Below are positions 1,813-21,177 of a DNA stretch of 64,000 nt, one piece after another. The DNA is from a virus, in IMG/VR virus record IMGVR_UViG_3300025168_015970, positions 1-64,000 of that record; one strand, written 5' to 3'. Below the pieces are notes generated by a model. That model worked only from the letters and a program-made list of their open reading frames with translations, did no database searches and was not told the DNA's origin. Made by a program: the position numbers and the translations under genes. Within the stretch, counting starts at the first letter, position 1, and every line of letters begins with the position of its first letter.

Positions 1813-1836
1813 TTAAATATAATAAGATATAAAAAT

Positions 1837-4487: not shown

Positions 4488-5249
4488 TTATACTTTTAAG
4501 GCCATGTCCCATACTAATAGGTGTAATCTAGGGCTAAATTTAAAATGATAAGATTTAGCAAACTCAGCTATTTCTTCTGCTCTTTCAATATGCTCTTTTC
4601 TACTACCAGCACAAGGCATTAACCAGACTCTATCATTTGGTATATTAAATTTATGTACATACTTTGTTAATACTTCTTGTAAGTCTTCTTCCTTACTAAT
4701 AACAAATTTAAAACCAGAATTATTTGTTACATGCCATTTTAATACCTCTGGTTTATATCTTCGCTCCTCAGGATCACCATTATTACTAAGCTTAGGGGAT
4801 GTCGTAAACGTTGCACCAACTCTTAACCAGTCGCTATGAGGCATAATCGTTGCATTAGTTTCAAAATCAATCCTAGGTACTGTACCCCACTCTACTTCTA
4901 TATGCTCTAAAAATTTAAGTAATTTAGGTTGCTGTACTAATGGTTCACCTCCAGTAATTTTCCAAATTGCTCCATTCTCAAGAGCTTTTCTGTAACCACC
5001 ATCTTCTAGATATGTAGTTAACTCTGCAAAGGTCATCTTATTCTTTACACTCCAAGAAATAAAACTATCACAACCATGAGGAGAATCAGCTGAAGCGAAG
5101 CCTTGACATGTTAAATTACACATTGATAACCTCATGAATACTGAAGGCCAGCCTACGTATTCTCCTTCGCCCTCAATAGTATAAAATACTTTATCGTCAG
5201 ATAATAATAATGTTTTATCCTTAAGGTCTTCCTTATAATCGTTCGTCAT
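4488..5249 (-). CDS. queE: 7-carboxy-7-deazaguanine synthase (radical SAM)
   Basis: The 253-residue protein has the QueE N-terminal signature FYTIEGEGEYVGWPSVFMRL and the radical-SAM GGEP motif (KITGGEPLVQQ). ETNATI and WLMPCAGS match later conserved QueE blocks. QueE rearranges 6-carboxytetrahydropterin to 7-carboxy-7-deazaguanine using SAM and a [4Fe-4S] cluster. The cluster cysteines are C44, C48 and C60 (CX3CX11C) rather than the usual CX3CX2C; expanded spacing is known in some bacterial and phage QueE proteins. It lies in an overlapping run with a 49-residue gene and queD, divergent from folE. Together these provide three of the four preQ0 steps. Confidence 0.85.
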   Translation of the reverse strand: MTNDYKEDLKDKTLLLSDDKVFYTIEGEGEYVGWPSVFMRLSMCNLTCQGFASADSPHGCDSFISWSVKNKMTFAELTTYLEDGGYRKALENGAIWKITGGEPLVQQPKLLKFLEHIEVEWGTVPRIDFETNATIMPHSDWLRVGATFTTSPKLSNNGDPEERRYKPEVLKWHVTNNSGFKFVISKEEDLQEVLTKYVHKFNIPNDRVWLMPCAGSRKEHIERAEEIAEFAKSYHFKFSPRLHLLVWDMALKV

Positions 5250-5382
5250 TTAAATATAAATCTTTAACATCTCTAGGCTCTGGCTTAACCTCTTCCTTTT
5301 TTGGTTTGCCCCAATCAATATCATTCCAGTTATCACCGATTTTTGATATATCTTCTTTACGTCTTTTACTACCTTTACTCAT
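5233..5382 (-). CDS. Small charged protein between queD and queE
   Basis: A 49-residue frame read by hand, beginning MSKGSKRRKEDISKIGDNW and ending KDLYLNDERL. Its ATG overlaps the queD stop (ATGAGTAA arrangement), and its stop lies 17 bases inside the queE start. This coupling is typical of real phage operon genes. It is rich in Lys, Asp and Glu and has no recognised domain. It may simply link translation of queD and queE; no function can be assigned. Confidence 0.5.
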   Translation of the reverse strand: MSKGSKRRKEDISKIGDNWNDIDWGKPKKEEVKPEPRDVKDLYLNDERL

Positions 5383-5842
5383 TTGATAATCTAATCTCCG
5401 TTTCTATACCTTCATAAATAGCAGAATTATTTTCATGTTCAAATATTTCTACTTTCTTACACCAACATCTACCCTTAGTAATTTCTTTTATGTATTCATC
5501 TGCTGTCTTGTAACAAAACTCAGCAAATTTCTCAATACCAACTCCACCTTCCATAATACGTAAATCTACAATATCATGCTCATTTAAAGATTTAAAGTTT
5601 GCTATTGCTGGGTCAGTAGACGAAATAACTGTAGTATGATCAAATTGAAGTTGGAATATTTTCTTAAGGTTTTTTAAACTACCAAAATCTACAACCCAAT
5701 TATTCTCATCTAACTCTTTCGCACCGAACCAGAATTTACCGACTAAACGATATCCATGAATAAATCGACAATGAGACTTTGCTTCAGGCTGCCTAAAGGC
5801 ACAACTACCTAATTCAATAATCTTAGTACTGCTAAAAGACAT
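5375..5842 (-). CDS. queD: 6-carboxytetrahydropterin synthase, divergent phage type
   Basis: The 155-residue protein aligns by eye with QueD/PTPS: a catalytic-Cys/HG block (SHCRFIHGYRL, residues 23-33), then NWVVDFGSLKNL, an FDH motif and the C-terminal glutamate region (EIFEHENNSAIYEG). QueD converts dihydroneopterin triphosphate to 6-carboxytetrahydropterin. Two of the three classical zinc histidines look changed: AAHR is CAFR here, and HGH is HGY. From memory, CAFR/HGY variants form a recognisable phage and proteobacterial QueD subgroup. Position between queE and divergent folE supports the role. A sigma70-like promoter precedes it at 5850-5877. Confidence 0.8.
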   Translation of the reverse strand: MSFSSTKIIELGSCAFRQPEAKSHCRFIHGYRLVGKFWFGAKELDENNWVVDFGSLKNLKKIFQLQFDHTTVISSTDPAIANFKSLNEHDIVDLRIMEGGVGIEKFAEFCYKTADEYIKEITKGRCWCKKVEIFEHENNSAIYEGIETEIRLSNE

Positions 5843-5849
5843 AAAAGCT

Positions 5850-5877
5850 ATTATAACTGAAGCCTAAAAAAATTCAA
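5850..5877 (-). promoter_or_regulatory. Sigma70-like promoter of queD
   Basis: Minus strand: TTGAAT (5872-5877), 16-nt spacer, TATAAT (5850-5855), then 7 nt to the queD ATG. It is back to back with the folE promoter, leaving 3 bp between the two -35 boxes. Confidence 0.65.
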
Positions 5878-5880
5878 CTG

Positions 5881-5908
5881 TTGATTACTTAGCGGCTTCC
5901 TATATAAT
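5881..5908 (+). promoter_or_regulatory. Sigma70-like promoter of folE
   Basis: TTGATT (5881-5886), 16-nt spacer, TATAAT (5903-5908), then exactly 6 nt to the folE ATG at 5915. The expected transcription start falls on the start codon, and there is no room for a Shine-Dalgarno sequence. Confidence 0.7.
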
Positions 5909-5914
5909 AACTGC

Positions 5915-6550
5915 ATGAGTGAATTATTGCAGTATGCAAACGGTAACTTACCACGGTCTGAAGAAGAGAAAGAAATAATTATTGAGAAAGCAGCATCCGC
6001 TTATGAGAAATATATGGACGCTCTAGGTTTTGATTGGAGAAATGATCCTAATAGTTCAGATACCCCGAGACGAGTAGCAAAGGCTTTTGTTAATGACTTA
6101 GCTGAAGGTTGTTATAATTTACCACCAAGGATTACAGCATTCGATAATGTGGATAAATATGATGGATTAGTATTTCAAGGTAATATTAAGGTAAATTCTT
6201 TTTGTTCTCATCATCATTTACCGTTTATTGGTCAAGCTCATGTATCTTACATACCTGGTAAAGACGGAAAAGTAATTGGACTAAGTAAAATTAATCGAAT
6301 TGTTGAATGGTTTGCGAGACGACCACAAGTACAAGAAAATTTAACGATGCAAATTCATAATTATATGAATGAAGTATGTAAAGATAATAAAGGTATTGCG
6401 GTCTTAGTTTCAGCTAATCATACTTGTGCTGGACTTCGCGGAGTTAAGCATGATAGTATTATGAAAACTGCGAGAATGTCAGGAGCATTTTTAGATAAAA
6501 CAGATTTGACAAGACAAGAGTTTTACGATTTTATAAGAGACTTAAAGTGA
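5915..6550 (+). CDS. folE: GTP cyclohydrolase I
   Basis: A 211-residue FolE. The zinc site is C97 and the histidines in CSHHHLPF (97-104), with C171 in NHTCAGLRGVKH as the third ligand. VIGLSKINRIVEWFARRPQVQ is the most conserved block of the family. FolE converts GTP to dihydroneopterin triphosphate, the entry to both folate and preQ0. With queD and queE divergently adjacent and queC at 19837, the preQ0 role is clear. It has its own promoter and a terminator-like hairpin just beyond its stop, so it is probably monocistronic. Its end overlaps the convergent gene by 9 bp. Confidence 0.92.
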   Translation: MSELLQYANGNLPRSEEEKEIIIEKAASAYEKYMDALGFDWRNDPNSSDTPRRVAKAFVNDLAEGCYNLPPRITAFDNVDKYDGLVFQGNIKVNSFCSHHHLPFIGQAHVSYIPGKDGKVIGLSKINRIVEWFARRPQVQENLTMQIHNYMNEVCKDNKGIAVLVSANHTCAGLRGVKHDSIMKTARMSGAFLDKTDLTRQEFYDFIRDLK

Positions 6551-7612
6551 GTCTAAAATTTGTTTGATTTGATCAAGGTCGACATGCTCCGGTATGTCGG
6601 CTTTTATTTTGTCAAAATCATCAAAATTATCTCTTATATTACTCGCGCTATATGGTCTACCATCAGGGCTAGAGGATACCTCGACTGCAGATTGTTCTGG
6701 GTCAATAATATTAATATCTAACCCTTCTTTTTCAGCCCATGGACTAGCATAAGACCAACGTTTCCAATCATTGTCTTTTTTACTTGCACCTAATACAGCT
6801 GTTGTACCAGGGTCTAAAGTTTTAAGAGATTCATAAGCAGAAGTTACAGGAGAAGGATGTTCAGATATACTTATAGTAACGTTATTCAAAGGTTGGGTAT
6901 ATATTTCAAATATTTGTTTTGCTGCAGCGGGAGTAATTAATTTACCGTCTTTAGTTCTTCTTTCACTTTTAGCAGAAGGTGCTGAAATTAAAACATGTAT
7001 TTGTCCCTGAGGGTACATATTACTATATTGTTCCACCATTTCGTAATGGCCTCTATGAGGGGGTTTAAAACTACCGGGTATAAGTACAACTACTCTATCA
7101 GTATCAGCTTCCGCTAAACTGTTTTTTTTTAAATCATCTATAAGAGTATCTATTTTAGAATCAAAATTTTCACTCAAACCATAATCAACAACAATCTTGC
7201 GTAATATCTTTGCTATTTCTTTCGCATTTTCTGGTTGTACATCTTGAGTTATAGCTTCTCTTTCAACATCAGATAAACTAACATTATCTAAATCAACAAA
7301 TAAAGATTTACGCGCTAAATTAACATAAAATGTTTCTCCTTCTGTAGTTAACGGAGCTGGTGCTTCTGGTGCTGGTGCTGGGGCTTCTGGCTGTTCTCCT
7401 TGATTTAATTCATCCCCTTCAGCTTCATCTAAAGATTTCAATAACTCCTGTCTTTTCTTTTTTGCTTTTTGAGCGATTTGTTTTTTGACTGGGTCTTTAG
7501 TAGTACCATCTTCAACCTCTTTTTCAATACGGTCAATTTCCGATTGATCGGTTTTTGCTGGTTTTTTACCACCATGCATCATTTCATGTATCTTAGAGAG
7601 AAACTTACTCAT
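6542..7612 (-). CDS. HIGH-motif nucleotidyltransferase with long N-terminal extension
   Basis: The 356-residue protein has a C-terminal cytidylyltransferase/NMNAT-like domain starting at about 172: VVVLIPGSFKPPHRGHYEMV (HxGH at 186-189) and a late SASNIR motif matching the family's (S/T)xxxR. This fold joins NMP moieties to phosphorylated substrates (for example NMN to NAD). Residues 1-75 are charged and helical, followed by a Pro/Ala-rich linker (75-90) and a helical segment (90-165). The amphipathic opening MSKFLSKIHEMM resembles other short N-terminal segments in the window. A full TATAAATA box lies 6 nt upstream. The substrate is unknown; NAD salvage is one option, a virion-associated enzyme another. 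Confidence 0.6.
   Translation of the reverse strand: MSKFLSKIHEMMHGGKKPAKTDQSEIDRIEKEVEDGTTKDPVKKQIAQKAKKKRQELLKSLDEAEGDELNQGEQPEAPAPAPEAPAPLTTEGETFYVNLARKSLFVDLDNVSLSDVEREAITQDVQPENAKEIAKILRKIVVDYGLSENFDSKIDTLIDDLKKNSLAEADTDRVVVLIPGSFKPPHRGHYEMVEQYSNMYPQGQIHVLISAPSAKSERRTKDGKLITPAAAKQIFEIYTQPLNNVTISISEHPSPVTSAYESLKTLDPGTTAVLGASKKDNDWKRWSYASPWAEKEGLDINIIDPEQSAVEVSSSPDGRPYSASNIRDNFDDFDKIKADIPEHVDLDQIKQILDSL
6575..6611 (+). terminator. Rho-independent terminator of folE, inside the opposing gene
   Basis: Stem CGACATGC (6580-6587), UNCG-type loop TCCG, then GTATGTCG (6592-6599) with one G-T wobble. The stem extends by further pairs on each side and is followed by the T-rich GCTTTTATTTT. It lies within the 3' coding end of the minus-strand gene at 6542-7612. 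Confidence 0.6.
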
Positions 7613-7618
7613 CTTAAT

Positions 7619-7626
7619 TATTTATA
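7619..7626 (-). promoter_or_regulatory. Late promoter, perfect TATAAATA, 6 nt from ATG at 7612
   Basis: Exact TATAAATA on the minus strand, overlapping the stop codon of the upstream gene, followed by ATTAAG and the ATG. The strict T4 late consensus supports control by gp55. Confidence 0.7.
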
Positions 7627-8170
7627 GCAACGAAAGCTTATTTCTCATGTCATTGAAGTATGTTTTGTCTAAAAACGTAAGATCATACTTTTTACAGAAA
7701 TATTGAAGTTTATTAAAATAAAATGGTTTTAATTGTATTTTTTGAAGTTTGCGAGTAAGAATTAAAATAGCTTCTTCTCTTCTACCGTTACACTTAAGAT
7801 TTTTTTTAAATTTATTGAAGGAAAAGTCTTCTTTTAATATAACAACTGGAAATTTTTTGATAAACATATCTAAGAAGGGCAGATACTTGTTATTAAGATC
7901 ATTTGATACATCAAAAAATATAACTGGTTTATATTTCTTATTATAATTTTTTAAGATTTCGCAGGTATAATATATAAAATAATGAAATATATATTTTTTG
8001 TGTTGAGTATTGTTTAATTTAATCTCTGAATCAAATTCAGATACTTTAGTAATTGAAAGATTATGTATACATTCAATTACAGGAGAAAAATTAACTACAT
8101 TAAAAAACGAATTCGGTAATTTATAATTTAAGGTCTGGCTTTGTATTAAGTTCTCGAATTGTGCTTGCAT
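7622..8170 (-). CDS. Unknown protein, aromatic- and lysine-rich
   Basis: A 182-residue protein with no recognised domain. It is unusually rich in Phe, Tyr and Lys. A segment KPVIFFDVSNDLNNKYLPFLDMFIKKFPVVIL suggests alternating strands and helices. Its start lies 50 bp inside the upstream Hjc-like endonuclease gene, so translation is probably coupled. No SD or promoter box is evident at the start. It could be a partner of the nuclease, judged only from this overlap. Confidence 0.45.
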   Translation of the reverse strand: MQAQFENLIQSQTLNYKLPNSFFNVVNFSPVIECIHNLSITKVSEFDSEIKLNNTQHKKYIFHYFIYYTCEILKNYNKKYKPVIFFDVSNDLNNKYLPFLDMFIKKFPVVILKEDFSFNKFKKNLKCNGRREEAILILTRKLQKIQLKPFYFNKLQYFCKKYDLTFLDKTYFNDMRNKLSLL

Positions 8171-8624
8171 TTTTTTTCCAAAAGTCTGTATAACTAATTA
8201 TAACATATTTGTTAGTATAGCGCAAGAAATTATCAAATCGGAAATAGTGAGATAATTCAACTGGAAATAAAATATAACTACCTTTGCGAGTTACTTTAAT
8301 TACGAGAAACCAATATGTTCCACTCTCTGCTTGTTCAATCCATTTATTAAGAGTTTTATTATCTGTAAATAGTTGATGATATTCGAATGTTTTGTAACTC
8401 TTACACTCAATTTTGAATTTAGACATGCATGGAGGTACCATTATATCTCCATCCATCATGCGCTTTTGATCTTCTGTTAGTCGATCAAGTCTGTGAAAAT
8501 TAGCGCCTCCAGTATAGGCTCCGGAATTTGGAACTCTAATAAAATTTTCATTAAACGTTTCACTTAAATCTTTAGCAACTTCTCTTTCCCAAGCGTTACC
8601 TTTTTGTTTCGCCGCACTAGGCAT
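8121..8624 (-). CDS. PD-(D/E)XK endonuclease, Hjc/RecB-like
   Basis: The 167-residue protein begins with KGNAWEREVAKDL (E14), the opening helix typical of archaeal Hjc-type Holliday-junction resolvases and related PD-(D/E)XK nucleases. D60 in MDGDIMVP and E73/K75 in FKIECKSYK complete the metal-binding D...ExK core. In T4 the resolvase is the unrelated gp49, so this may be a functional substitute for processing branched DNA before packaging; that is inference. The gene overlaps the next minus-strand gene by 50 bp. Confidence 0.65.
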   Translation of the reverse strand: MPSAAKQKGNAWEREVAKDLSETFNENFIRVPNSGAYTGGANFHRLDRLTEDQKRMMDGDIMVPPCMSKFKIECKSYKTFEYHQLFTDNKTLNKWIEQAESGTYWFLVIKVTRKGSYILFPVELSHYFRFDNFLRYTNKYVIISYTDFWKKNASTIRELNTKPDLKL

Positions 8625-8637
8625 ATATAAGTATATA

Positions 8638-9237
8638 TCACTTAGCTAGATCTTGCAAGTTAATAGCTTGTTTAACTGCATCAATTGGTATTTGGGCTGT
8701 CCAGTAATTACCTTCATCTGCAGGCTGTAATTCTGGTAATTTATTTCTATCTAATATGAGTAGATATGCTCTCGATTTTTGTTTATATTCATGAAAAGCA
8801 AATCTACCAGCTAATTGAATATCATCTGATACATATGAACCGGTAATACCTTTGCGTGTATTACCAACTCCACGAGAAACAACAAAACCATGTTTATTTA
8901 AATTTTTATATTCTGCGGAAGATATTCCTCTATATACTTCATCAGAATTATTTTGTAATTTAGCAATGTTAGCAACGATAGCTTCGTGCTCTTCTCCTTC
9001 TGGTGGAAATAATAAGTAGTCATATATACTTTTAGCTTCGTTTAACTTTTTCTTTTTTTTCTTTTTTTTTCGCTTTATTAACTTACCTAATACTTTAGGA
9101 ATTCTAGCATCCCCGGGAGCATATGTATCACTATCTTCATAATCCCCGCCACCTTGTCCACCAGATGCACCCATATTAGCTGTAGCTGTAGTATTATCAG
9201 TTAAATATTGATTTACTATTTCATCGAAGCGATTCAT
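8638..9237 (-). CDS. Poly-lysine protein with possible ADP-ribosyltransferase-like C-terminus
   Basis: A 199-residue protein in three parts. Residues 1-14 (MNRFDEIVNQYLTD) resemble N-termini at 9302 and 52864. A Gly/Asp-rich stretch (24-42) and a basic tract with eight consecutive lysines (57-64) follow. Residues about 99-195 contain VYRGISS, GSYVSDDIQLAGRFA and QIPIDAV, reminiscent of the R-S-E layout of arginine-type ADP-ribosyltransferases, although the catalytic glutamate is not evident. The start has a GATAAATA box 6 nt upstream, which makes it a late gene and possibly a virion component. The enzymatic reading is weak. Confidence 0.4.
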   Translation of the reverse strand: MNRFDEIVNQYLTDNTTATANMGASGGQGGGDYEDSDTYAPGDARIPKVLGKLIKRKKKKKKKKLNEAKSIYDYLLFPPEGEEHEAIVANIAKLQNNSDEVYRGISSAEYKNLNKHGFVVSRGVGNTRKGITGSYVSDDIQLAGRFAFHEYKQKSRAYLLILDRNKLPELQPADEGNYWTAQIPIDAVKQAINLQDLAK

Positions 9238-9243
9238 TTTAAT

Positions 9244-9251
9244 TATTTATC
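9244..9251 (-). promoter_or_regulatory. Late-promoter box (GATAAATA), 6 nt from ATG at 9237
   Basis: Seven of eight bases match TATAAATA; six bases (AATTAA-type) separate it from the ATG. It is divergent from the uvsY sigma70-like promoter in the same 64-bp gap. Confidence 0.55.
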
Positions 9252-9268
9252 TCTATAATAGTAATTAG

Positions 9269-9295
9269 TTGCATTAAGAGAGATTTAACTATAAT
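9269..9295 (+). promoter_or_regulatory. Sigma70-like promoter of the uvsY-uvsW-gp55-gp47-gp46 operon
   Basis: TTGCAT (9269-9274), 15-nt spacer, TATAAT (9290-9295), and 6 nt to the ATG at 9302. It heads a run of five overlapping or nearly overlapping genes. Confidence 0.55.
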
Positions 9296-9301
9296 AAGTA
9301 C

Positions 9302-9706
9302 ATGGACGTTGGTGATATTATCAATCAGTACCTCGAAGAAGCTAGCTTAGATACAGATCTAGATAGATTAGAGGTAGTATCTACTCAAGAAAAACTAGTA
9401 AATAATAAACATAAATGGTCTGCAAGGTTAATTAACCATAAAATTAAATTAAACAATTATAAAATCAAAAGATCTTCTATTCTTGAGGATAAAATAACTG
9501 AGTTTCAAAACACAGAACCTGTAAAAGTTAATAGATCAATTGCTGAGAGAGCTGTTCAAAACAAAAAGGAAATTAAAAATTTAGATTATAAAGTAAAAAA
9601 TGAACAACTCATAATTGATTATCTAGAAAATATATATAAAAATATAAGCTTCGCAACTAATGATATTAAAAACTTAGTAGAATTAATGAAGCTAGAAACT
9701 CAATGA
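9302..9706 (+). CDS. uvsY: UvsY-like recombination mediator
   Basis: The 134-residue protein is close to T4 UvsY in length (137 aa) and largely helical. I recognise the family pattern in a central run of regularly spaced Leu/Lys residues and in the C-terminal block (IIDYLENIYKNISFATNDIKNLVELMK), which parallels the LExI-x-IxxRTWxIKNxIEW ending of marine phage UvsY. UvsY loads the UvsX recombinase onto gp32-coated ssDNA. It is the first gene of an operon followed at once by uvsW, as expected for T4-like phages; uvsX and gp32 are also in the window. Overall identity is probably low. Confidence 0.6.
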   Translation: MDVGDIINQYLEEASLDTDLDRLEVVSTQEKLVNNKHKWSARLINHKIKLNNYKIKRSSILEDKITEFQNTEPVKVNRSIAERAVQNKKEIKNLDYKVKNEQLIIDYLENIYKNISFATNDIKNLVELMKLETQ

Positions 9707-11142
9707 TAAAAATAGAGTTTAATTCAATTTCTCATGCTATTATAGATGGTCCTGAACTTAATGTTATAAGGGAGCATTTTAGTGTAAAAAATGAAGCAGT
9801 ACACTTTCAGCGACGATTCGGTAGGTTCGTACCACCTCGTACGTATGTGATTAGTAATCAAGGTAAAGTAGAACTAGGTTTAATAGAAGAAGTAATAAAA
9901 TTTTGTACACAAAAACAAATAGAGTTTGAATTACAAAAAGAAATAAAAGAAATACTTTATCCTTCTCTATCTAAAACTCACACTACACCATATGATTTAA
10001 ATTTAAAACTAAGAGATTATCAACAAGATATAGTAGAGAAATGTATAACCAATGGAAGAGGTACTATAGTATTAGCAACTGCAGGAGGTAAAACTCTTAC
10101 TATGGCTAGTCTTTTAGAGTTTTATTATAAAAATTATAGTAAGAATTTTAGATGTTTAATAATTGTACCGGATCTAGGATTAACAAACCAGACTAAAAAC
10201 GATTTTGAAGAATATAAAACATCCTTTTCTACTTCGAAATGGACCGGGAAAGATAAATTAAATTTATCTACTAATGTTATTGTATCTAATCTAGGTATAC
10301 TACAAAGCTCTAAGCAAGATATATCTTGGATTGAACATATAGATTTATTAATAATAGACGAGGTACACAAACTAAGAAGAGGTAATAAAGTAAACAAAAT
10401 ATTAAAAAAGGTTAAAACCTCTAATCGGTTCGGCTTCACAGGAACCTTACCACCAGATAATTTAGATAAGTGGAATATTTTTGGAAAGATTGGACCACAA
10501 TTATATGAAAAAATGGCTCATGAATTACGGAAAGATAATTATGTAGCTCCTGCTAAAGTTCATGTTTTAGAACTAAACTATAATACTCCTTCGAATGAAA
10601 TATACCACGGTAATAATAGTAATGCATACTACATACAAGAAAATGAATTTATAAGGCATAGCGAGTATAGAAATAACTTAATAGCTAAATTATGTAACAA
10701 ACTCGACAACAATGGTTTAATATTAGTCGATTATATAGAACATGGGGAGCTTTTATTAGAAGCATTACAAGCAACGTGTAAACATAAAGATGTATATTTT
10801 ATACAAGGTAGTGTAGATACGGAGCAACGGAAAGATATTCAAGATTATATGGAGTCTCAAAAAAATGTAGTAGTAATTGCGATTTCGAAAATATTTTCTA
10901 CAGGAATTAATATTAAAAACCTACATTATATTATATTCGGAGGAGGTGGAAAAGCTAAAATAAAAATTGTGCAAAGTATCGGCAGGGGTCTACGCTTGCA
11001 TATTGATAAACAAGAGCTTATAATCTTTGATATTGCTGATAATCTTCGGTATGGTCAACGTCATATAGAGCAAAGGCTCACATTATATGATAATGAAAAA
11101 ATAGAATATACATTTACTAAATTCAATGAAACCAAAAAGTAA
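9703..11142 (+). CDS. uvsW: UvsW-like SF2 DNA helicase
   Basis: The 479-residue protein shows SF2 motifs in order: LRDYQQDIVEKC (Q-type region), LATAGGKTLTMA (motif I), LLIIDEVHKL (motif II, DEVH), GFTGTLP (motif III, SAT-like), and IQGSVDTEQRKDI through AISKIFSTGINI and QSIGRGLR (motifs IV-VI). UvsW unwinds branched DNA and R-loops and helps switch from origin- to recombination-dependent replication. The N-terminal 110 residues match the small UvsW N-terminal domain in position. The start overlaps the uvsY stop by four bases and the end overlaps gp55 by 17. Length is slightly below T4 UvsW (503 aa). Confidence 0.88.
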   Translation: MIKIEFNSISHAIIDGPELNVIREHFSVKNEAVHFQRRFGRFVPPRTYVISNQGKVELGLIEEVIKFCTQKQIEFELQKEIKEILYPSLSKTHTTPYDLNLKLRDYQQDIVEKCITNGRGTIVLATAGGKTLTMASLLEFYYKNYSKNFRCLIIVPDLGLTNQTKNDFEEYKTSFSTSKWTGKDKLNLSTNVIVSNLGILQSSKQDISWIEHIDLLIIDEVHKLRRGNKVNKILKKVKTSNRFGFTGTLPPDNLDKWNIFGKIGPQLYEKMAHELRKDNYVAPAKVHVLELNYNTPSNEIYHGNNSNAYYIQENEFIRHSEYRNNLIAKLCNKLDNNGLILVDYIEHGELLLEALQATCKHKDVYFIQGSVDTEQRKDIQDYMESQKNVVVIAISKIFSTGINIKNLHYIIFGGGGKAKIKIVQSIGRGLRLHIDKQELIIFDIADNLRYGQRHIEQRLTLYDNEKIEYTFTKFNETKK

Positions 11143-11572
11143 AAAGAAAAAGAAAAATAAAAAAACTTATTATGTTAGTCCTAAGGAGTTTTTACAACTT
11201 TTAAGAGACTACTATGAATCAGATAATTTAGTAGACGAACTAGCTGAATCAACCTATAAGATAGCAGTCGGTTTAAGTTACTCTCCAAACTTTATAAACT
11301 ATAGCTATAAAGATGAAATGATTGGAGACGCAATAGTTAAAATGATTGCAGCAGTAAAAAACAAAAAATTTAATTTAGAATCCACCTCTAACCCTTTCTC
11401 ATATTTTACAACTATTGCTTATCATGCATTTATTAATAGAATTAAAAAAGAAAAGAAATACAGAGAGACTATTACTGCATATCAAGAACAACTATATAGT
11501 GATTTAGATATAAATGAACCAACACAAAATACTGCCCCTGCTAAAGATTACGATAAAGAATTATATACGTAA
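11126..11572 (+). CDS. 55: Late-transcription sigma factor gp55
   Basis: The 148-residue protein carries the gp55 core: YKDEMIGDAIVKMIAAVKN and NPFSYFTTIAYHAFINRIKK, which correspond to sigma region 2-like promoter recognition of TATAAATA. gp55 redirects host RNA polymerase to late promoters, and many such boxes occur in this window. An unusual lysine-rich N-terminus precedes the core (11 Lys in the first 13-14 residues). The acidic C-terminal end (YDKELYT) is where T4 gp55 carries its sliding-clamp-binding tail; a clear match is not visible. It overlaps uvsW by 17 bp, and its stop overlaps the gp47 start. Confidence 0.85.
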   Translation: MKPKSKKKKKNKKTYYVSPKEFLQLLRDYYESDNLVDELAESTYKIAVGLSYSPNFINYSYKDEMIGDAIVKMIAAVKNKKFNLESTSNPFSYFTTIAYHAFINRIKKEKKYRETITAYQEQLYSDLDINEPTQNTAPAKDYDKELYT

Positions 11573-12621
11573 TGTCAAAAGAATCTGACAATAAGGTTGG
11601 TTTTTTCACCGATCTACATATAGGGATGCATCAAAACAGTGAGAAGTGGCATGATGTTACCTATAAATGGGCACAATGGTTTACTAAAGAGCTCAAAAGT
11701 AAAGATATTAAAAAAATAATATTTGGAGGAGATTTATTTCACTATAGAGATGAGATAAATGTTAAAACATTATATTTTACAAACTCTTTATTAGATCTAT
11801 TTAATGATTTTGAAATATTAATGATACCAGGTAATCATGACGCTTACTATAAAGATAATTCAACTGTACATTCTTTATCTATTTTAAATAATAGACATAA
11901 TATAACTATTTTCGATAAGCCTCATGTAGAAGAGATATGTGGCAGGCAGGTTGGTTTCTGTCCATGGGGCACTTCATTAGAGGATATTCCTGAAAATTGT
12001 GATTTGATAGTTGGTCATTTTGAATTACAAAATTTTAATTTTAATTCTTTTAAAGTATGTGAGTGGGGAATATCTTCAACTGATATTCTTACTAAATGTA
12101 AACTTATATTTTCTGGTCATTTTCATAAAAAACAGCGAAGACTATATGATAACGGAGAAATAGTATATGCGGGTAATCCGTTTGAGATGGATTTTAATGA
12201 CATTAATGACAAAAAAGGATATTATATATTAGATTTTGCAAAAGATAAAATAGAATATGATTTTATTGAAAATCCTATTTCTCCTATACATGTTAAAGTA
12301 TGTTTGACAAATCTAGAAGACCTTAAAGGGATTGCAAAGAAATTAGGGTGGTCCAAGCTAGCAGTAAAGATTGTTATTGATAAGGATATAAAATCTAATT
12401 TATTAGATAAAATTATTGCATCAATAAATTTTGAAGCTCCATTTTCTTTAACTACAGATTACTTACACAAATTTAGTATAGGAGATAATATAAACATACC
12501 TAACGAATTTGGAGACTTGAATATAAAACAATGTATTATAGAATATATTGATTCTCTTGATATAGAGGATAAACCAACAATTATTAACAAAACCTTACAA
12601 CTATATAATAATTTTTCATGA
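11572..12621 (+). CDS. 47: Recombination nuclease gp47 (SbcD/Mre11-like)
   Basis: The 349-residue protein has all Mre11-type phosphoesterase motifs in order: FFTDLHIGMH, IFGGDLFHYRDE, MIPGNHDAYY, LIVGHFELQ and LIFSGHFHKKQ. gp47 pairs with gp46 to resect DNA ends for recombination-dependent replication and host DNA breakdown. Its ATG overlaps the gp55 stop (TAATG), and its stop overlaps the gp46 ATG by four bases, consistent with translational coupling of the two subunits. Length is as expected (T4 gp47 339 aa). Confidence 0.93.
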   Translation: MSKESDNKVGFFTDLHIGMHQNSEKWHDVTYKWAQWFTKELKSKDIKKIIFGGDLFHYRDEINVKTLYFTNSLLDLFNDFEILMIPGNHDAYYKDNSTVHSLSILNNRHNITIFDKPHVEEICGRQVGFCPWGTSLEDIPENCDLIVGHFELQNFNFNSFKVCEWGISSTDILTKCKLIFSGHFHKKQRRLYDNGEIVYAGNPFEMDFNDINDKKGYYILDFAKDKIEYDFIENPISPIHVKVCLTNLEDLKGIAKKLGWSKLAVKIVIDKDIKSNLLDKIIASINFEAPFSLTTDYLHKFSIGDNINIPNEFGDLNIKQCIIEYIDSLDIEDKPTIINKTLQLYNNFS

Positions 12622-14444: not shown

Positions 14445-14453
14445 ATCTATATA

Positions 14454-15686
14454 GTGCTCACACCATTTCAACCCCCAGGTAGTCAGTTACCATTTAGCCA
14501 ACAAAACCCTCTTATGAGCGGTTTAAAAACAGTGATTACAGGTCCACCTAAAGTAACTTCTAAAATGGCTACTCATTCTGCTCCTGATTTAGCACGAGGT
14601 ATTAATTTTTATGCCGATTATTCTGGGTGTGGTCATTGGAGAATGATATGGCCGGAAAACTTACTCAATTGTTACGGTAAAGCTAATGTACAAGGCGGTA
14701 CAGTAATGATTGGGGATAAAAATTTCTATAAAGGTATTAAGACTATACGTATACAAAGACAAGCTACAGACAGTCAATTATCATATATTAAATGGTTAAA
14801 ACAAGTACAACCTGAGTGTGGCTTTAAGATAGTATATGAAATAGATGATTTAATTTTTAATGAAGATATACCTCATTATAATAAATTTAGATTTGCTTTT
14901 GAAGATCCAAGTATAAGAAAGACTAGTATGAATATTATGCAAATTTGTGACGAAATTACTGTTACAAATAAATTCATGAAAGAATACTATATGGAAAAAA
15001 CTGGTAATAAAAATATTACAGTTATTCCAAATTTTATACCAAAATTCTGGATGGATAGATATTATAACTTAGAGAAAATAAGAGATAATTATCAAAAATT
15101 TAAAGGTAAACCTCGGGTAGTATATTGTGGTAGTGGAGCTCATTTTGATGTAGAAAATAAAATCGGACAAAAAGATGATTTTTTTCATGTAAATGATATT
15201 ATAAGACAAACTGTAGATGAATTTCAATGGGTATTTGTAGGTGGTTTTCCGCTTACTTTAAGAGATTTGATACACCAAAAGAAGGTTGAATACCATGAAT
15301 GGTCTAACTTAGTAGAATATCCAGAATACATAAGCAAGTTGAAAGCAACTGTATTTTATGCGCCGCTAGAGGATAGTAATTTTAATAAAGCAAAGAGTGA
15401 TTTAAAATTTATTGAAGCGTGTGCATTTGGTATACCTTCTGTTTGTCAAGACTTATGTACCTATGAAACAGCTTTCCATAAGTTTAAAACTGGTGATGAT
15501 TTAGTTAATAAAATTAGACTTATAACTGGAGATTCTAAAAAATATCTAAAAGAAGTAAAAAGAGCTAGAGCTTATATTGAAAAGCGATGGATGGAGACAA
15601 ATATCGATTATTATACAGAGTTATATTCTTTACCGTATGGTCATAAGAACCGCAAACTACTCAATCTCGAAAACGGAATCACTTGA
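14454..15686 (+). CDS. Glycosyltransferase, GT4-like
   Basis: The 410-residue protein reads as a GT-B enzyme. SGCGHWRMIWPENLL near residue 60 matches the N-terminal G-x-x-R loop, KIVYEIDDLIF at about 125 the acidic strand, VTNKFMKEYY and TVIPNFIP the interdomain region, RVVYCGSG at about 222 the second domain start, and SDLKFIEACAFGIPSVCQD at about 322 the nucleotide-sugar-binding E-x7-E type motif. Its position between gp46 and gp43 is an insertion in the replication block. The start is GTG at 14454, 9 bp after gp46, with no clear SD; an internal ATG at 14514 is an alternative. Substrate unknown. Confidence 0.65.
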   Translation: MLTPFQPPGSQLPFSQQNPLMSGLKTVITGPPKVTSKMATHSAPDLARGINFYADYSGCGHWRMIWPENLLNCYGKANVQGGTVMIGDKNFYKGIKTIRIQRQATDSQLSYIKWLKQVQPECGFKIVYEIDDLIFNEDIPHYNKFRFAFEDPSIRKTSMNIMQICDEITVTNKFMKEYYMEKTGNKNITVIPNFIPKFWMDRYYNLEKIRDNYQKFKGKPRVVYCGSGAHFDVENKIGQKDDFFHVNDIIRQTVDEFQWVFVGGFPLTLRDLIHQKKVEYHEWSNLVEYPEYISKLKATVFYAPLEDSNFNKAKSDLKFIEACAFGIPSVCQDLCTYETAFHKFKTGDDLVNKIRLITGDSKKYLKEVKRARAYIEKRWMETNIDYYTELYSLPYGHKNRKLLNLENGIT

Positions 15687-15711
15687 TTTATTTTGAATAA
15701 TCCTGTATACT
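15683..15711 (+). promoter_or_regulatory. Sigma70-like promoter of gp43
   Basis: TTGATT (15683-15688), 17-nt spacer, TATACT (15706-15711), then 7 nt to the GTG start of the DNA polymerase. It overlaps the end of the upstream glycosyltransferase gene. Confidence 0.6.
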
Positions 15712-15718
15712 CGTTGGA

Positions 15719-18376
15719 GTGTATAGAAACTTAGCATACATACCCAATCAGCGAGTCATGAGACTCTACACATGGGATGAAAATGGGGAGAGAATAGAAA
15801 CAGATTGCCCATATCAACCTTATTTTTATTATGAAACAAATTCAAATAGATATGATGGGGTGTCTTTATACGGTACTAAATTAAGAAAAGTCTTTGCTAA
15901 TAGTAATCTTGACCGCCGTAAAAAAATTGAAGATTTAAATGATCATAAAATTTATGAGAACATTACACCCTATCAACAGTTTTTAGTAGATAGGTTCTGG
16001 GAAGTAAATGAATCTAATGATTTTAGTAAATTTCCATTAAAGATATGGTTCTTTGATATTGAGACATATTCCCCCGACGAATTTCCAAAACCAGAGGAAG
16101 CTAGTCATATGATAAATGTAATCACTATATATGATACAGTAAAGGAAACGTATTATACATGGGGAATTAATCCATATACCCCTAAAACAGATGATGTTGT
16201 TTACGTACATTGTAAGAGTGAAGTTGAGCTGTTACAGAAATTTTTAGACTTTTATTGCAATGATCGCCCTGATATACTATCTGGGTGGAATAGTGAGATA
16301 TTTGATGTCCCGTATGTAATAAACCGGGTCAGAAATCTCTTAGGAGAAGATGCTACAAGACTGTTTTCTCCAGTCCATGACGAAATTATGAAGCCAATAT
16401 ACCAACGAGTGTATCGTGGTAATTTTGGTATGACAACTACGAAATATGTAGTAGAAGGGGTGTCTATGCTTGATTATCTCGATGTGTATAAAACCTTCAG
16501 CATGGGCATGAGAGACAGCTATAAGTTAGATAACATAGCTCATATAGAACTAGGAGAGAACAAGGTAGATATAGGAGAAACTAACCTTGCTACACTGTCT
16601 ATAGAGGATTGGGACAAGTTTGTTGATTACAATATACATGATGTTAGATTGCTAGTACGACTGGAAGCTAAGCTTATGTACATGGATCTTGCTCGTATGT
16701 TGTCTTATATTGGACTAACCCCGTTTAATGCGGCTTTAGGTACAATCAGCACTGTAAACGGTCGAGCAATCGTTGAAGCGCGAAAGCTAGATACCCCTAG
16801 AGTTATACCAACTTTTGTGAAAGGAGATGACCGCACCGGGAAATTTGAAGGGGCTTATGTTGGTGAACCGAAACGAGGGTTTCAGGAAAATGTTATATCT
16901 TTTGACGCTAACTCCCTGTACCCTAGTGTAATGGTAACTCTTAACTTGAGCCCAGAAACTAAAGTAGGTAGCATTGTCGGTACTGATAATGGTAAGGTGT
17001 TTGTAAAGACAGTCAATAACAAGGATATTGAAATGTCTTATGAAGACTTCAACAAATGGTGTGCAAAAAATGAGATTGCAGTCACTAGAGCAAAAAAACT
17101 TTTCTCTCAAAAAACCAAAGGTATCTTCCCTAGAATTACAGATCACTTCTATGATATACGAAAAGTAAAAAAACAAGAATGGAACGAAGCTAGGGAGGCT
17201 TTACATCAATTATCATTGAAATTAGAAAAAGAAACTGACAGTAAAGAGCGTATCAAAATAGAGCAAGATATGAAAGATATGCAATTCAAAATTGATCAGC
17301 TTTGGATTTGGCAGTTTACTTTAAAGATTCTTATTAACAGAATTTACGGCTATTTTGGCAATAAAATATCTCAAATGGGGGATGGAGACATCGCAAGATC
17401 AATTACGTTAACTGGTAGAGACGTAATTAAACAAAGTAATATAATTCTAAGAAACTATATTAAAAAGATTACCGGGATGTCTGATAAAGAATTGGATGGT
17501 AATGATCCAATCATATATAATGACACAGATAGCTCTTATTGTACTATAACCCCTATACTAAAACATCTAGGTATACCCTTACATGATAACAATAAAATAG
17601 ATGACCGAGTATATAAATTAGTACAAGATATTGAAGACGATTTAAACGTTCATATTGATAAATGGGCAAGAGATACCCTATTAACTAAGGATCCTAGGTT
17701 TGTTTTTAAGAGGGAGTCAATTTGTGACAAAGGTATATTTCTACAAAAGAAACGTTACGTGTTACATAAACTTGACGATGAAGGAGTAGTTTGCAATAAA
17801 TTTAAATACACCGGGGTAGAGGTAGTTAGAACCACTATGCCTAATGCAATCAAGCCATATGTTAAGAAAATTATTGAACATATGATTATGACTGAAAATC
17901 AAAATACTACTAACGAACTGTTTGAAGAGACGTATGAAATTTTTAAGTCCTTACCAATTAAAGATATTGCATTTGTGATGGGAGTTAAAGAATATGAGAA
18001 ATATAGCATATATACTAAAGATTGGCAGGTCAAAAAAGGAACACCGATTCACGTTAAGTCCTCTATATATTACAATAAACTTTTAGAGCATTATGGTATT
18101 GACAAGAAATATGAAAGTATTAGTTCAGGTGATAAAATCCGGTATTTTTATACTGTGACCCCTAATAAGTTTGGTTTAAATAGCTTAGGTTTTAAGTATG
18201 ACTTACCTCAAGAATTCGAACAAGACTTTAAAATAGACTACGAAAAAATGTTCGACAAGATTGTTTATAGCGTTATTGATAGGTTCTATGATAACGTGAA
18301 TTGGAAGTCCTTTAAACCTGGTCAAGCAGTAAATGTAGATTTATTTGATTTCTTTAAAGTAGATGTTGCAAATTAA
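15719..18376 (+). CDS. 43: Family B DNA polymerase gp43
   Basis: The 885-residue protein (T4 gp43 898 aa) has the 3'-5' exonuclease motif IWFFDIETYSPDE at about 108, polymerase motif A VISFDANSLYPSVM at about 391, motif B KILINRIYGYFGNK at about 536 and motif C IIYNDTDSSYC at about 600, with the active-site D-T-D present. It replicates the phage genome with clamp gp45 and loader gp44. The start is GTG: no in-frame ATG lies upstream, and MYRNLAYIPNQRVM matches the usual marine-phage N-terminus. The coding region is intact, with no intein or split. Confidence 0.96.
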   Translation: MYRNLAYIPNQRVMRLYTWDENGERIETDCPYQPYFYYETNSNRYDGVSLYGTKLRKVFANSNLDRRKKIEDLNDHKIYENITPYQQFLVDRFWEVNESNDFSKFPLKIWFFDIETYSPDEFPKPEEASHMINVITIYDTVKETYYTWGINPYTPKTDDVVYVHCKSEVELLQKFLDFYCNDRPDILSGWNSEIFDVPYVINRVRNLLGEDATRLFSPVHDEIMKPIYQRVYRGNFGMTTTKYVVEGVSMLDYLDVYKTFSMGMRDSYKLDNIAHIELGENKVDIGETNLATLSIEDWDKFVDYNIHDVRLLVRLEAKLMYMDLARMLSYIGLTPFNAALGTISTVNGRAIVEARKLDTPRVIPTFVKGDDRTGKFEGAYVGEPKRGFQENVISFDANSLYPSVMVTLNLSPETKVGSIVGTDNGKVFVKTVNNKDIEMSYEDFNKWCAKNEIAVTRAKKLFSQKTKGIFPRITDHFYDIRKVKKQEWNEAREALHQLSLKLEKETDSKERIKIEQDMKDMQFKIDQLWIWQFTLKILINRIYGYFGNKISQMGDGDIARSITLTGRDVIKQSNIILRNYIKKITGMSDKELDGNDPIIYNDTDSSYCTITPILKHLGIPLHDNNKIDDRVYKLVQDIEDDLNVHIDKWARDTLLTKDPRFVFKRESICDKGIFLQKKRYVLHKLDDEGVVCNKFKYTGVEVVRTTMPNAIKPYVKKIIEHMIMTENQNTTNELFEETYEIFKSLPIKDIAFVMGVKEYEKYSIYTKDWQVKKGTPIHVKSSIYYNKLLEHYGIDKKYESISSGDKIRYFYTVTPNKFGLNSLGFKYDLPQEFEQDFKIDYEKMFDKIVYSVIDRFYDNVNWKSFKPGQAVNVDLFDFFKVDVAN

Positions 18377-18393
18377 TTTCAATCATCTATAAT
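18366..18393 (+). promoter_or_regulatory. Sigma70-like promoter before the gp43-uvsX spacer gene
   Basis: TTGCAA (18366-18371), 16-nt spacer, TATAAT (18388-18393), 6 nt to the ATG at 18400. It overlaps the last codons of gp43 and probably drives the 18400 gene, uvsX and queC. Confidence 0.65.
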
Positions 18394-18399
18394 ACTTGC

Positions 18400-18756
18400 A
18401 TGGACATTATCACATACATTGATAGTATAGGTAGGACATGTTTCGGAGAACTAGAGTCTCGTACGAAGAACTCTATTAAAGTTAAATCACCCGCTATGAT
18501 TATGGTGACTCCTAACGACGCTGCGAACATGAAGGTAGACGTTATGCCTCTATTTTTTACAGAATTCTCTAACGGAAAACCACCGGTTTTTATTTATAAA
18601 GACCCTCAATTCGTAGAGGTAGAAATTGAGATTTCTGAGAAAATCTTACAGCATTATTATGCAAAGATAAACACTACAGAGGAACCAAACCCTGCAGGGG
18701 TAACTGAAGCCCTTGAGGAAGAAGTACCTGAAGTAACATTATTCGAAGAGAAATAA
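18400..18756 (+). CDS. Conserved marine-phage protein between gp43 and uvsX
   Basis: The 118-residue protein begins MDIITYIDSIGRTCFGELE. A small protein of this type (IGR motif, strand-rich, acidic tail) commonly sits between gp43 and uvsX in marine T4-like phages, from memory. The last 35 residues are acidic (EEPNPAGVTEALEEEVPEVTLFEEK). The function is unknown. Its stop is 2 bp before uvsX, so it is co-transcribed with the recombinase. The IGR opening and strand-rich middle suggest a small beta-barrel, which is a guess. Confidence 0.6.
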   Translation: MDIITYIDSIGRTCFGELESRTKNSIKVKSPAMIMVTPNDAANMKVDVMPLFFTEFSNGKPPVFIYKDPQFVEVEIEISEKILQHYYAKINTTEEPNPAGVTEALEEEVPEVTLFEEK

Positions 18757-18758
18757 TT

Positions 18759-19847
18759 ATGTCATCTCTCGCTGATAAAGCTTTTGCTAAATTACAAAAG
18801 TTAAATTCAAACGCTACTACTCTCGAAAATAATACACTTAGTAACGTAACTGAGTGGATTGATACAGGTTGTTTAGTATTAAACTCTATAGTATCAGGTT
18901 CTATATATGGAGGGGTACCTAAAGGTAGAATTACCATTTTTGCTGGAGATTCCGGTTGTGGTAAAACGTTTATTTTAAATAAAATTTTAGCAAACGCTCA
19001 GCGAATGGGTATGATACCTATTATTTTTGACACTGAAATAGCTGTTGAAAATGAAGGAGCAGAAAACGTCGGCTTAGATACATCTAACGTAAAATATGTA
19101 CCGGTCGATACTGTAGAAAATTGTCGTAATCAGATTATGACATTTTTAGATGAAGTAGAAAAAGAACCAGAACTACATGGTAAATTTATTATTTCAATAG
19201 ACTCTTTAGGCAATTTAGCATCAGAAAAAGAAATAAATGATGCTCATGCTAATAAGGGCGCCATGGATATGGGTTTAAGAGCTAAGCAGCTGAAGTCCAT
19301 GATGCGTATCATTACTTTTAAAGCAGCCGTGACTGGTACAACAGTTATATGCAGTAATCATACTTATGCGAATCCCGCAGCATTACATCCTACCTTAGTT
19401 AAGTCTCAAGCTGGTGGCTCGGGGCCTATATACATGGCGTCTATATTAGTTCAAATGGCAGCTAAGAAAGAAAAAACTGATGCATCTAACGATGAGGATG
19501 AAGCTTTAACTGAAAGCAGAAATTACTCAGGAGTTACTCTCCGTATGCTTACAGTAAAAAATAGATTCATTCCAGCATTCTTACAAGGGGAAGCTTATTT
19601 AAATTTTAAAACTGGTCTAGATAAATATTCTGGTTTAAAAGATATTGCAGTTGCTCATGGGATTGTTCAACAAAATGGTTCTACCTATAGCATGGGAGAT
19701 AAAAAATTAGGTTATTATAAGAATTGGCGCAATGACGAAGAGACGTGGAAAAATATCTTACCTAAGTTAGAATCTTCTATAAGTGAAAAGTACCGATACG
19801 GTAAGTCCTTAGATAAATCTGCTATATTAGAACAAGATGAAGAGTAA
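18759..19847 (+). CDS. uvsX: UvsX RecA-like recombinase
   Basis: The 362-residue protein has the RecA core: Walker A GDSGCGKTFIL at about 67-77, the Walker B-like FIISIDSLGNLAS at about 148, and NHTYANPAALHPT followed by the glycine-rich QAGGSG (loop L2 region). UvsX catalyses strand exchange on gp32/UvsY-prepared ssDNA. Length is close to T4 UvsX (391 aa). Its last 11 bases overlap queC, an unusual linkage of recombination to preQ0 synthesis that suggests co-expression early in infection. Confidence 0.93.
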   Translation: MSSLADKAFAKLQKLNSNATTLENNTLSNVTEWIDTGCLVLNSIVSGSIYGGVPKGRITIFAGDSGCGKTFILNKILANAQRMGMIPIIFDTEIAVENEGAENVGLDTSNVKYVPVDTVENCRNQIMTFLDEVEKEPELHGKFIISIDSLGNLASEKEINDAHANKGAMDMGLRAKQLKSMMRIITFKAAVTGTTVICSNHTYANPAALHPTLVKSQAGGSGPIYMASILVQMAAKKEKTDASNDEDEALTESRNYSGVTLRMLTVKNRFIPAFLQGEAYLNFKTGLDKYSGLKDIAVAHGIVQQNGSTYSMGDKKLGYYKNWRNDEETWKNILPKLESSISEKYRYGKSLDKSAILEQDEE

Positions 19848-20526
19848 AGCTGTAGTACCTATTTCAGGTGGTTTAGATAGTTCCGTAATATTAAGTTTTG
19901 CTGCTGAAAAGCATGATGATATATATGCAATAACTTATGACTACGGTCAAAAGCACAATAAAGAATTATTATATGCAGGTCTTCAAATTGATTATTATGA
20001 TAATATTGAAGAGCATAACATAATTGATTTACCGTTTTTTAAAAATCTAGCTCCAACCTCTTCTCTTACAAATAATAATATACCTGTTGCTCATGCGCGA
20101 GATGTATTAGGAGACGCTCAGACTGTAAACTATGTTCCCTTTCGTAATATGATGATGTTATCTATTGCGTGTTCATATGCAGAGGCGGTAGGAGCGGAGA
20201 CTGTATATCATGGATCTGCTTTGGTAGATAGTCAGGCTGGTTATTGGGATGGTAGTAGTGAGTTCTTACAAAAGATAAATGAGACAACTTCTTTAAATAG
20301 AAAGCATTTAGTAAAAGTTGAAGCCCCTTTAATTAATTTATCAAAAGCAGCAATTGTTGAGCTTGGTATAGATAATAAAGTTAACTTTGAAGATACGTGG
20401 ACTTGTTATGAAGGAAAAGATAAGGCGTGTGGTTATTGTACAGCTTGTAGTTCTCGTATACAAGGCTTTTTAGAAAATAATCTTAAAGACCCGGTAGAAT
20501 ATTCAAGAACGGATATTCCATGGTAA
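19837..20526 (+). CDS. queC: 7-cyano-7-deazaguanine (preQ0) synthase
   Basis: A 229-residue QueC: PP-loop SGGLDSS at 10-16, YDYGQKHNKEL, VPFRNMMMLS, HGSALVDSQAGYWDGS, and zinc cysteines C190, C198, C201, C204 (CX7CX2CX2C). QueC uses ATP and ammonia to convert 7-carboxy-7-deazaguanine to preQ0, completing the route begun by FolE, QueD and QueE. It starts inside the uvsX 3' end, and the class II amidotransferase gene follows 15 bp after its stop. In phage 9g and in archaea a class II Gat domain is fused to QueC, and this adjacency looks like the unfused form. Confidence 0.92.
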   Translation: MKSKAVVPISGGLDSSVILSFAAEKHDDIYAITYDYGQKHNKELLYAGLQIDYYDNIEEHNIIDLPFFKNLAPTSSLTNNNIPVAHARDVLGDAQTVNYVPFRNMMMLSIACSYAEAVGAETVYHGSALVDSQAGYWDGSSEFLQKINETTSLNRKHLVKVEAPLINLSKAAIVELGIDNKVNFEDTWTCYEGKDKACGYCTACSSRIQGFLENNLKDPVEYSRTDIPW

Positions 20527-20529
20527 AAA

Positions 20530-20535
20530 TATAAT
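20530..20535 (+). promoter_or_regulatory. -10 box (TATAAT) before the Gat-like gene
   Basis: TATAAT followed by exactly 6 nt and the ATG at 20542, the same layout as folE and uvsY. No good -35 box is visible at the right distance, so this is a weaker call. Confidence 0.35.
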
Positions 20536-20541
20536 ATTAAT

Positions 20542-21177
20542 ATGTGCGGTATATTTGGATCAAATAATATAAAAACATTCAGGGAGTTATATAATAAAAA
20601 CTCAGAGAGAGGTAATTTTGTACGTAGCATTACTAAGTTATTTCTACCAAACACTAAACATAATGGTGTAAATGTAACAACAGAATACTCCCAAGACTTT
20701 AATAAGAGTATAGAAGAAGATGATTTATGTGTTTATTATCTTGGCCATGTTCAATCTCCAACAACAGAAGTAAGAGAGTTTAATACAGATACCTCTCACC
20801 CGTTTCAATTTAAAGATACATACATTGCTCATAATGGGGTATTAGAAAATTCTAACGAATTAAAAGAGAAATATGAGTTACCAGCAAATGATGTAGATAG
20901 TAGTATTATACCTTCTCTCATATATAGACTAGGTTATAAGGAAGCTCTATCTGCATTAAAAGGAACATTTGGTTGTTGGGCATATGATCAACAATTGGGA
21001 CAACTCCGTATATTTAGATCTGGTTCTACATTATGCCTGAGAGGTTCCTCTTTTAGTTCTGCTTATAAGCCTGATTATGAGAGAGTAGAACAAGGAGTTA
21101 TATACGAGTGTAATTTTAGTACTAATACGTTCTTTAAAGTAGATAGTTTTAGTAGTAACTCACCGTTCTTTTTATGA
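20542..21177 (+). CDS. Class II glutamine amidotransferase, Gat-like partner of QueC
   Basis: The 211-residue protein starts MCGIFGS, so removal of Met exposes the Cys nucleophile of Ntn-type glutamine amidotransferases. GHVQSPTTE, FQFKDTYIAHNGVLEN and NDVDSSIIPSLIYRLG match the glutamine-binding and core regions of GlmS/PurF N-domains, and there is no attached synthetase domain. Class II Gat domains are fused to QueC in Crenarchaeota and in phage 9g, where preQ0 is taken on to archaeosine-type 7-formamidino-7-deazaguanine. Placement directly after queC supports a free-standing version. An alternative is an amidotransferase for sugar amination, since glycan genes are also present. Confidence 0.75.
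   Translation: MCGIFGSNNIKTFRELYNKNSERGNFVRSITKLFLPNTKHNGVNVTTEYSQDFNKSIEEDDLCVYYLGHVQSPTTEVREFNTDTSHPFQFKDTYIAHNGVLENSNELKEKYELPANDVDSSIIPSLIYRLGYKEALSALKGTFGCWAYDQQLGQLRIFRSGSTLCLRGSSFSSAYKPDYERVEQGVIYECNFSTNTFFKVDSFSSNSPFFL

Follow-up and report, generated by a model that had tools for sequence, protein, structure and literature searches.

What base does a virus put into its DNA when it encodes the enzymes of preQ0 synthesis together with a standalone glutamine amidotransferase (Gat) beside QueC, and what does this Gat do? The question is raised by five genes of a marine virus in IMG/VR record IMGVR_UViG_3300025168_015970, which is 75,055 bases long and stems from a T4-like virus with T4-like replication genes; the window, that is, the stretch of DNA analysed, is 64,000 nucleotides of this record. 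No near-identical phage was found in the GenBank phage collection, and the terminase is at most 34% identical to those of cyanophages, for example ACG-2014e and S-CAM4. Since the record is a fragment, genes missing from it mean little.

An earlier note on this DNA had placed FolE, QueD and QueE at 4488-6550 and QueC at 19837, and Pfam and PHROGs profile matches confirmed their presence. All four enzymes of the preQ0 pathway are thus encoded, with QueD and QueE as sequence variants. FolE (5915..6550, plus strand; PF01227, 2.3e-46; phrog_2197, 4e-58) is the GTP cyclohydrolase I of the first step to preQ0, and is 93% identical in a related virus, G001. The QueD-like 6-carboxytetrahydropterin synthase (5375..5842, minus strand; PF01242, 9e-16; phrog_2389, 1e-34) keeps the catalytic cysteine, but two of the canonical histidines that bind zinc are missing (HGH changed to HGY). 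This HGY variant is common to Flavobacterium phage vB_FspM_immuto_2-6A (immuto below) and the relatives G001, G008, and G011. G001 has a second, canonical QueD, so that such a gene may likewise lie beyond the ends of the fragment in the window virus. The QueE-like radical SAM 7-carboxy-7-deazaguanine synthase (4488..5249, minus strand) matches phrog_2076 (7.6e-44), has no Pfam match, and matches the solved QueE structure 4njg weakly (8e-5). Its cluster motif reads CX3CX11C in place of CX3CX2C, a form kept in four relatives. Adjoining QueE is a gene for a P-loop kinase of the AAA_28 type (3708..4469, minus strand; PF13521, 1.4e-14; phrog_2107, thymidylate-kinase-like), of the same family as a kinase in an operon of the relatives that is described below (G001 11333-11908; phrog_2107, PF13521).

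The fourth enzyme, QueC (19837..20526, plus strand; PF06508, 2e-56; TIGR00364, 166 bits against a cut-off of 150), is encoded by a gene that overlaps the end of a UvsX-like gene by 11 bp. Canonical QueC proteins, which form cluster 1 of PF06508, are characterized by the motifs SGGxDS, YxQxHxxE, and VPxRN, four zinc-binding cysteines, and a YPDC motif whose tyrosine is essential (PMC13329287). The viral protein keeps SGGLDS, YGQKHNKE, VPFRN, and the four cysteines, the latter spaced as CX7CxxCxxC, with one residue fewer than in CX8CxxCxxC. The YPDC substrate motif is replaced by YWDG, with the tyrosine kept and the proline and cysteine lost. Across the QueC proteins surveyed, this YWD motif occurs with G, C, T, A, or S in the fourth position.

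The Gat gene (20542..21177, plus strand; PF13522, 1.4e-10) begins exactly 15 bp after the QueC stop codon and its product starts with MCG, which bears out the earlier reading of a class II amidotransferase with a Cys2 nucleophile at that distance. The protein keeps Cys2, an HNG motif (His97-Asn98-Gly99), and Asp119, and the best Foldseek matches of its AlphaFold2 model (pLDDT 92) are to the glutaminase fold of GFAT/GlmS, AsnS, and PurF. It thus has the N-terminal cysteine, the Asn-Gly oxyanion hole and, as predicted, the fold of class II (Ntn) enzymes. With the glutaminase domain of GlmS (1xff) it shares this fold, the N-terminal cysteine, the HNG motif, and the aspartate for the amino group of the substrate, but it has no sugar-isomerase domain and differs at Arg73 of GlmS, a residue that binds the carboxylate of glutamine. 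This position is Gln71 in the Gat of the window virus and glutamine in 63 of 63 standalone, or split, Gats, whereas the Gat domain of phage 9g keeps the arginine. Glutamine is therefore not assured as the nitrogen donor.

QueC normally uses free ammonia, so that a Gat is not strictly needed; the partnership of the two proteins is instead suggested by their genes. Searches of IMG/VR yielded 57 loci when seeded with QueC and 80 when seeded with Gat. Wherever the contig reaches far enough, Gat lies 3' of QueC on the same strand, either directly or past intervening genes, which include a GMP reductase-family gene in many loci and other genes in some. Every testable distinct YWD-type QueC gene (58 of 58) is linked to a Gat gene on the same strand, and the two are unfused in all of these cases as in the window virus; a standalone Gat accompanies none of the five distinct YPD-type QueC genes. 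The same pair is present in KVP40, nt-1, V1.081.O, V2.275.O, 6E35.1a, F86, and Pseudomonas phage pf16. A KVP40-type Gat was found in 51 GenBank phages, 49 from Vibrio and two from Pseudomonas; that of 6E35.1a follows queC directly (MW824377, 24672-25277) and that of nt-1 is VPFG_00173. In the KVP40-type records examined, the standalone Gats beside phage QueC are annotated as hypothetical or as 'nucleophile aminohydrolase'. Narrow search patterns retrieved only two relatives of Gat from 84,980 bacterial and archaeal genomes, one of them adjoining QueC in a MAG contig of 6.5 kb. Split Gats make up a family that is conserved among phages and, to judge from the linkage of the genes, they appear to work with QueC as their partner.

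The same neighbourhoods bear on another possible role of Gat, namely aminosugar synthesis together with a glycosyltransferase and the many sugar genes of the virus. Gat resembles GlmS, the gene of a glycosyltransferase (21174-21875) overlaps its stop codon, and the virus encodes SIS, epimerase, NTP-transferase, and cytidylyltransferase-like proteins. Yet Gat stays with QueC in KVP40, nt-1, pf16, and V2.275.O, where no glycosyltransferase adjoins it, and it is still found 3' of QueC where other genes intervene. A function in sugar metabolism is thus very unlikely, and a partnership with QueC is the reading retained here.

What such a pair would make is a separate question. The earlier note had deduced from the presence of Gat an amidine, deoxyarchaeosine-like base, made by an unfused version of the Gat-QueC of phage 9g. 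The two systems are alike in that a class II Gat domain works with a QueC domain, and passages of PMC6884629 report that the 9g protein, together with DpdA, puts dG+ into DNA. The 9g system differs from the split pair in that Gat and QueC are fused, QueC is of the YPD type, the glutamine-binding arginine is kept, the product is dG+, and DpdA belongs to another family. In a tree in which 9g, on a long branch, is the only fused sequence, the YWD-type QueC proteins that accompany split Gats form one branch (support 100/98) that excludes the QueC domain of 9g. Compared at the level of sequence, the split Gat is not a remnant of a disrupted 9g-type Gat-QueC.

Published analyses of DNA from phages with the split pair point the same way. 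The preQ0 cluster of Schizotequatrovirus and nt-1 (KVP40, nt-1, and 6E35.1a) encodes FolE, QueD, DpdA2, QueF, QueC, and Gat. Like the window virus, these phages have a YWD-type QueC and, directly after it, a standalone Gat from the same family, and QueF occurs in KVP40 and 6E35.1a as it does in relatives of the window virus. The KVP40/nt-1 cluster differs in having DpdA2 instead of the divergent DpdA described below and a double-length QueD, no formyltransferase was seen in it, and the genes of the window virus are instead dispersed among replication genes. According to passages of PMC6884629, the DNA of nt-1 contains mainly dPreQ0 (0.11% of G), with 0.035% dADG and five-fold less dG+ (0.02%) than dPreQ0; these passages credit an ArcS homologue, and Gat is not considered in them. 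In 6E35.1a, dPreQ1 amounts to 15% of dG (PMC12028318). The bases of these two phages are a better fit to preQ0 made by the QueC-Gat pair than to an amidine. The dG+ of 9g and the trace of it in nt-1 are what an amidine product has in its favour. The excess of dPreQ0 in nt-1, the dPreQ1 of 6E35.1a, and the QueF of the relatives, which leads to preQ1, stand against it, as do the separate QueC branch, the YWD motif, and the arginine-to-glutamine change of Gat. We therefore consider an amidine improbable and favour preQ0 as the product of the pair.

Any such base would have to be inserted into DNA, for which DpdA is the enzyme expected. The remark in the earlier note that no DpdA lies in the window extends to the whole 75,055-base record, in which PF01702, phrog_887, phrog_10773, home-made profiles of DpdA1 and DpdA2, and a search for the divergent DpdA introduced here all gave no DpdA. 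QueF and formyltransferase genes were likewise absent from this record, QueF also with a home-made profile. Colinear relatives nevertheless supply a divergent DpdA outside the block that they share with it. The 200,819-base contig G001 is colinear with the record over 71 genes with a mean identity of 65%, and outside this block it has an operon for a 272-residue DpdA-like protein, a PurN-like formyltransferase, an AAA_28 kinase, and QueF. The DpdA-like gene is carried by 34 IMG/VR loci, and at least 25 contigs have all four genes of the operon. The contigs G002, G005, G006, and G008 each carry QueE together with QueF and the DpdA-like gene, the last at 30-43 kb from QueE. The relatives with the operon are about 65-69% identical to the window virus at the protein level. 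In the window virus the operon would lie about 30-50 kb to the left of QueE in the orientation of the window; its contig stops there after 4.5 kb, so that the absence of the operon is expected, and from its occurrence in the colinear relatives we infer that the window virus has it too.

The 272-residue protein carries the motifs LLDNSIFE, VPDV, AVQG, and HLLGAS and belongs to phrog_19058, a family of unknown function. It was missed by PF01702, phrog_887, phrog_10773, and a profile search of the PDB; sequence profiles gave no link to solved TGTs, and its relationship to them appears in the fold. The top Foldseek matches of its AlphaFold2 model (pLDDT 91) are a TGT (1.6e-9) and the DpdA structure 7ui4 (2.7e-6), with TM-scores, normalised by query length, of 0.55-0.66, and the two catalytic aspartates, D57 and D215, are invariant. 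By its predicted structure, the protein is a divergent DpdA with the TIM-barrel fold of TGT. A weak phrog_887 match in G003 was judged by eye to be a glycosyltransferase-like protein and not DpdA. A DpdA-free nucleotide route through GMP reductase, a phosphoribosyltransferase, and a kinase had been considered because no TGT was found in the relatives at first, and ceased to be the leading idea when the divergent DpdA came to light.

The other enzymes of the operon indicate the kind of base. QueF of G001 (TIGR03138, 3.5e-74; 249.9 bits, below the cut-off of 293.5) keeps the catalytic Cys, Asp, His, and Glu as well as the motifs CRVTSQPDW and FHEE. The formyltransferase of the relatives keeps its N-x-H and Asp residues, and an enzyme of this kind reportedly makes a formylated preQ1 base, in work of Cui et al. 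from 2023. The combination of QueF, DpdA, and formyltransferase in the relatives thus points to a preQ1-type rather than an archaeosine-like base.

The operon also bears on whether the DNA is modified at all. Both preQ0 and preQ1 are precursors of queuosine, and the pathway could instead boost queuosine in host tRNA and leave the phage DNA unmodified. Such a role has been proposed, in passages of PMC6884629, for phages with preQ0 genes and without DpdA. For the virus considered here it is highly improbable: its relatives encode a protein with the predicted fold of DpdA and TGT in one operon with QueF and a formyltransferase, the homologous gene of phage immuto is annotated as DpdA, and related pathways modify DNA. 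The operon of immuto has the gene order seen in the relatives of the window virus (DpdA, formyltransferase, kinase, QueF), but its DpdA is 46% identical to theirs, its QueE only about 21% identical, and no QueC or Gat was found within the 20.7 kb stretch examined.

The divergent DpdA family extends to Campylobacter phages. The product gp056 of phage CP220, annotated as 'hypothetical protein', is a member with 41% identity and its gene adjoins that of an AAA_28 kinase; a protein of the same identity is encoded by CPt10. One could thus suppose that Gat and QueC of the window virus stop at the amide, ADG, which arises as an intermediate of QueC chemistry, and that the divergent DpdA inserts ADG as it might in these two phages, whose DNA contains 100% dADG (PMC8306585). 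The presence of the 41% identical protein in both, and of a kinase gene of the same family beside it in CP220, speaks for such a scheme. CP220 and CPt10 differ from the window virus, however, in this product and in that no split Gat was found in them; QueC of Campylobacter phage WX1 is of the FPDC type, with no standalone Gat found beside it, and QueF of the relatives acts on the nitrile preQ0. An ADG end product for the window virus is accordingly improbable, and a base derived from preQ0 is preferred. Passages of PMC6884629 list Campylobacter phages with preQ0 genes and without DpdA, and propose insertion by way of modified dGTP. Our literature search found nothing on the formyltransferase (DpdN), nor on DpdA in CP220, although a later paper may already name gp056 as DpdA.

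Taken together, the genes, the linkage, and the DpdA of the relatives support that part of the earlier note which predicted DNA modified with 7-deazaguanine and Gat as a partner of QueC; the amidine that it had proposed is not supported. In the scheme that we consider rather probable, FolE, QueD, QueE, and QueC would convert GTP into preQ0, with Gat as a separate amide-hydrolysing subunit that would hand ammonia to QueC, so that the two would act as an amide-nitrogen-dependent preQ0 synthetase. By comparison with the colinear relatives, three further enzymes would be encoded beyond the ends of the sequenced fragment: QueF to reduce preQ0 to preQ1, the divergent DpdA to exchange guanine in phage DNA for preQ1, and the PurN-like formyltransferase, which would probably formylate the aminomethyl group. 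The resulting preQ1-type, perhaps formylated, 7-deazaguanine would guard the phage DNA from restriction. Weighing against this scheme are the zinc histidines missing from QueD, the glutamine at the Arg73 position of Gat, and the minor amounts of dG+ and dADG in nt-1.

More tentatively, and with somewhat less than even confidence, we propose that YWD-type QueC and standalone Gat form a distinct two-subunit preQ0 synthetase, apparently nearly restricted to phages, and that phrog_19058 is a divergent DpdA family that accounts for insertion in CP220-type phages as well as in this virus group, where the base would be a formylated one of the preQ1 type. The link between Gat and QueC gives phage Gats annotated as hypothetical a testable function and distinguishes them from enzymes that make archaeosine. 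For the Campylobacter phages that replace all of their dG by dADG, the divergent DpdA family provides a candidate insertion enzyme, and the operon, with its QueF and formyltransferase, makes a definite prediction of the base, which mass spectrometry could check.

Phage CP220 of Campylobacter, whose DNA has been reported to contain 100% dADG (PMC8306585), encodes a homologue of the divergent DpdA, the predicted TGT-fold protein of the relatives. This gene, gp056 (L197:7995-8771), is annotated as hypothetical and adjoins an AAA_28 kinase gene. PMC6884629 lists DpdA as missing from the phage group of CP220.

Among the preQ0 enzymes, QueD and QueE are sequence variants. The window QueD (5375-5842) carries HGY in place of HGH and lacks the first zinc histidine, a variant common to the window, Flavobacterium phage immuto, and the relatives G001, G008, and G011, while a second QueD in G001 (41993-42547) is canonical. 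The iron-sulfur motif of the window QueE (4488-5249) is CX3CX11C and is kept in four relatives, whereas that of immuto is CX3CX7C. The window FolE has no match at the syntenic place in G008 (37379-38483), where both QueE and QueD are found. Both G001 (19011-19490) and immuto (L196:7840-8235) have a gene for a phosphoribosyltransferase close to their modification genes. G001 also encodes two prepilin-like proteins within the phage contig (63416-65385; GFTLIELLVVIAIIA), and either these are host-derived genes or the contig is a chimeric assembly.

QueC also adjoins Gat on a 6.5-kb MAG contig binned as Mariprofundus (JALUWF010000174; L202:3278-4576). Its QueC is about 50% identical to that of KVP40, and the contig is possibly of phage origin.

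Sugar genes are numerous (window 1171-2673, 14454-15686, 21174-21875, 27619-29524, and 38617-39477; L001:10746-12566), including those for a SIS protein, glycosyltransferases, epimerases, an NTP transferase, and a cytidylyltransferase-like protein, which suggests that the virus makes nucleotide-sugars.

In many relatives, QueC and Gat flank a GMP reductase/IMPDH-family gene (PF00478; L043:1284-2240, also L024, L102, L116, and L082), whose top NCBIfam match is the GMP reductase PRK05458, with a score under the cut-off. The family was found in 9 of the 12 relative contigs searched and not in the window record. Its product could adjust guanine nucleotide pools.
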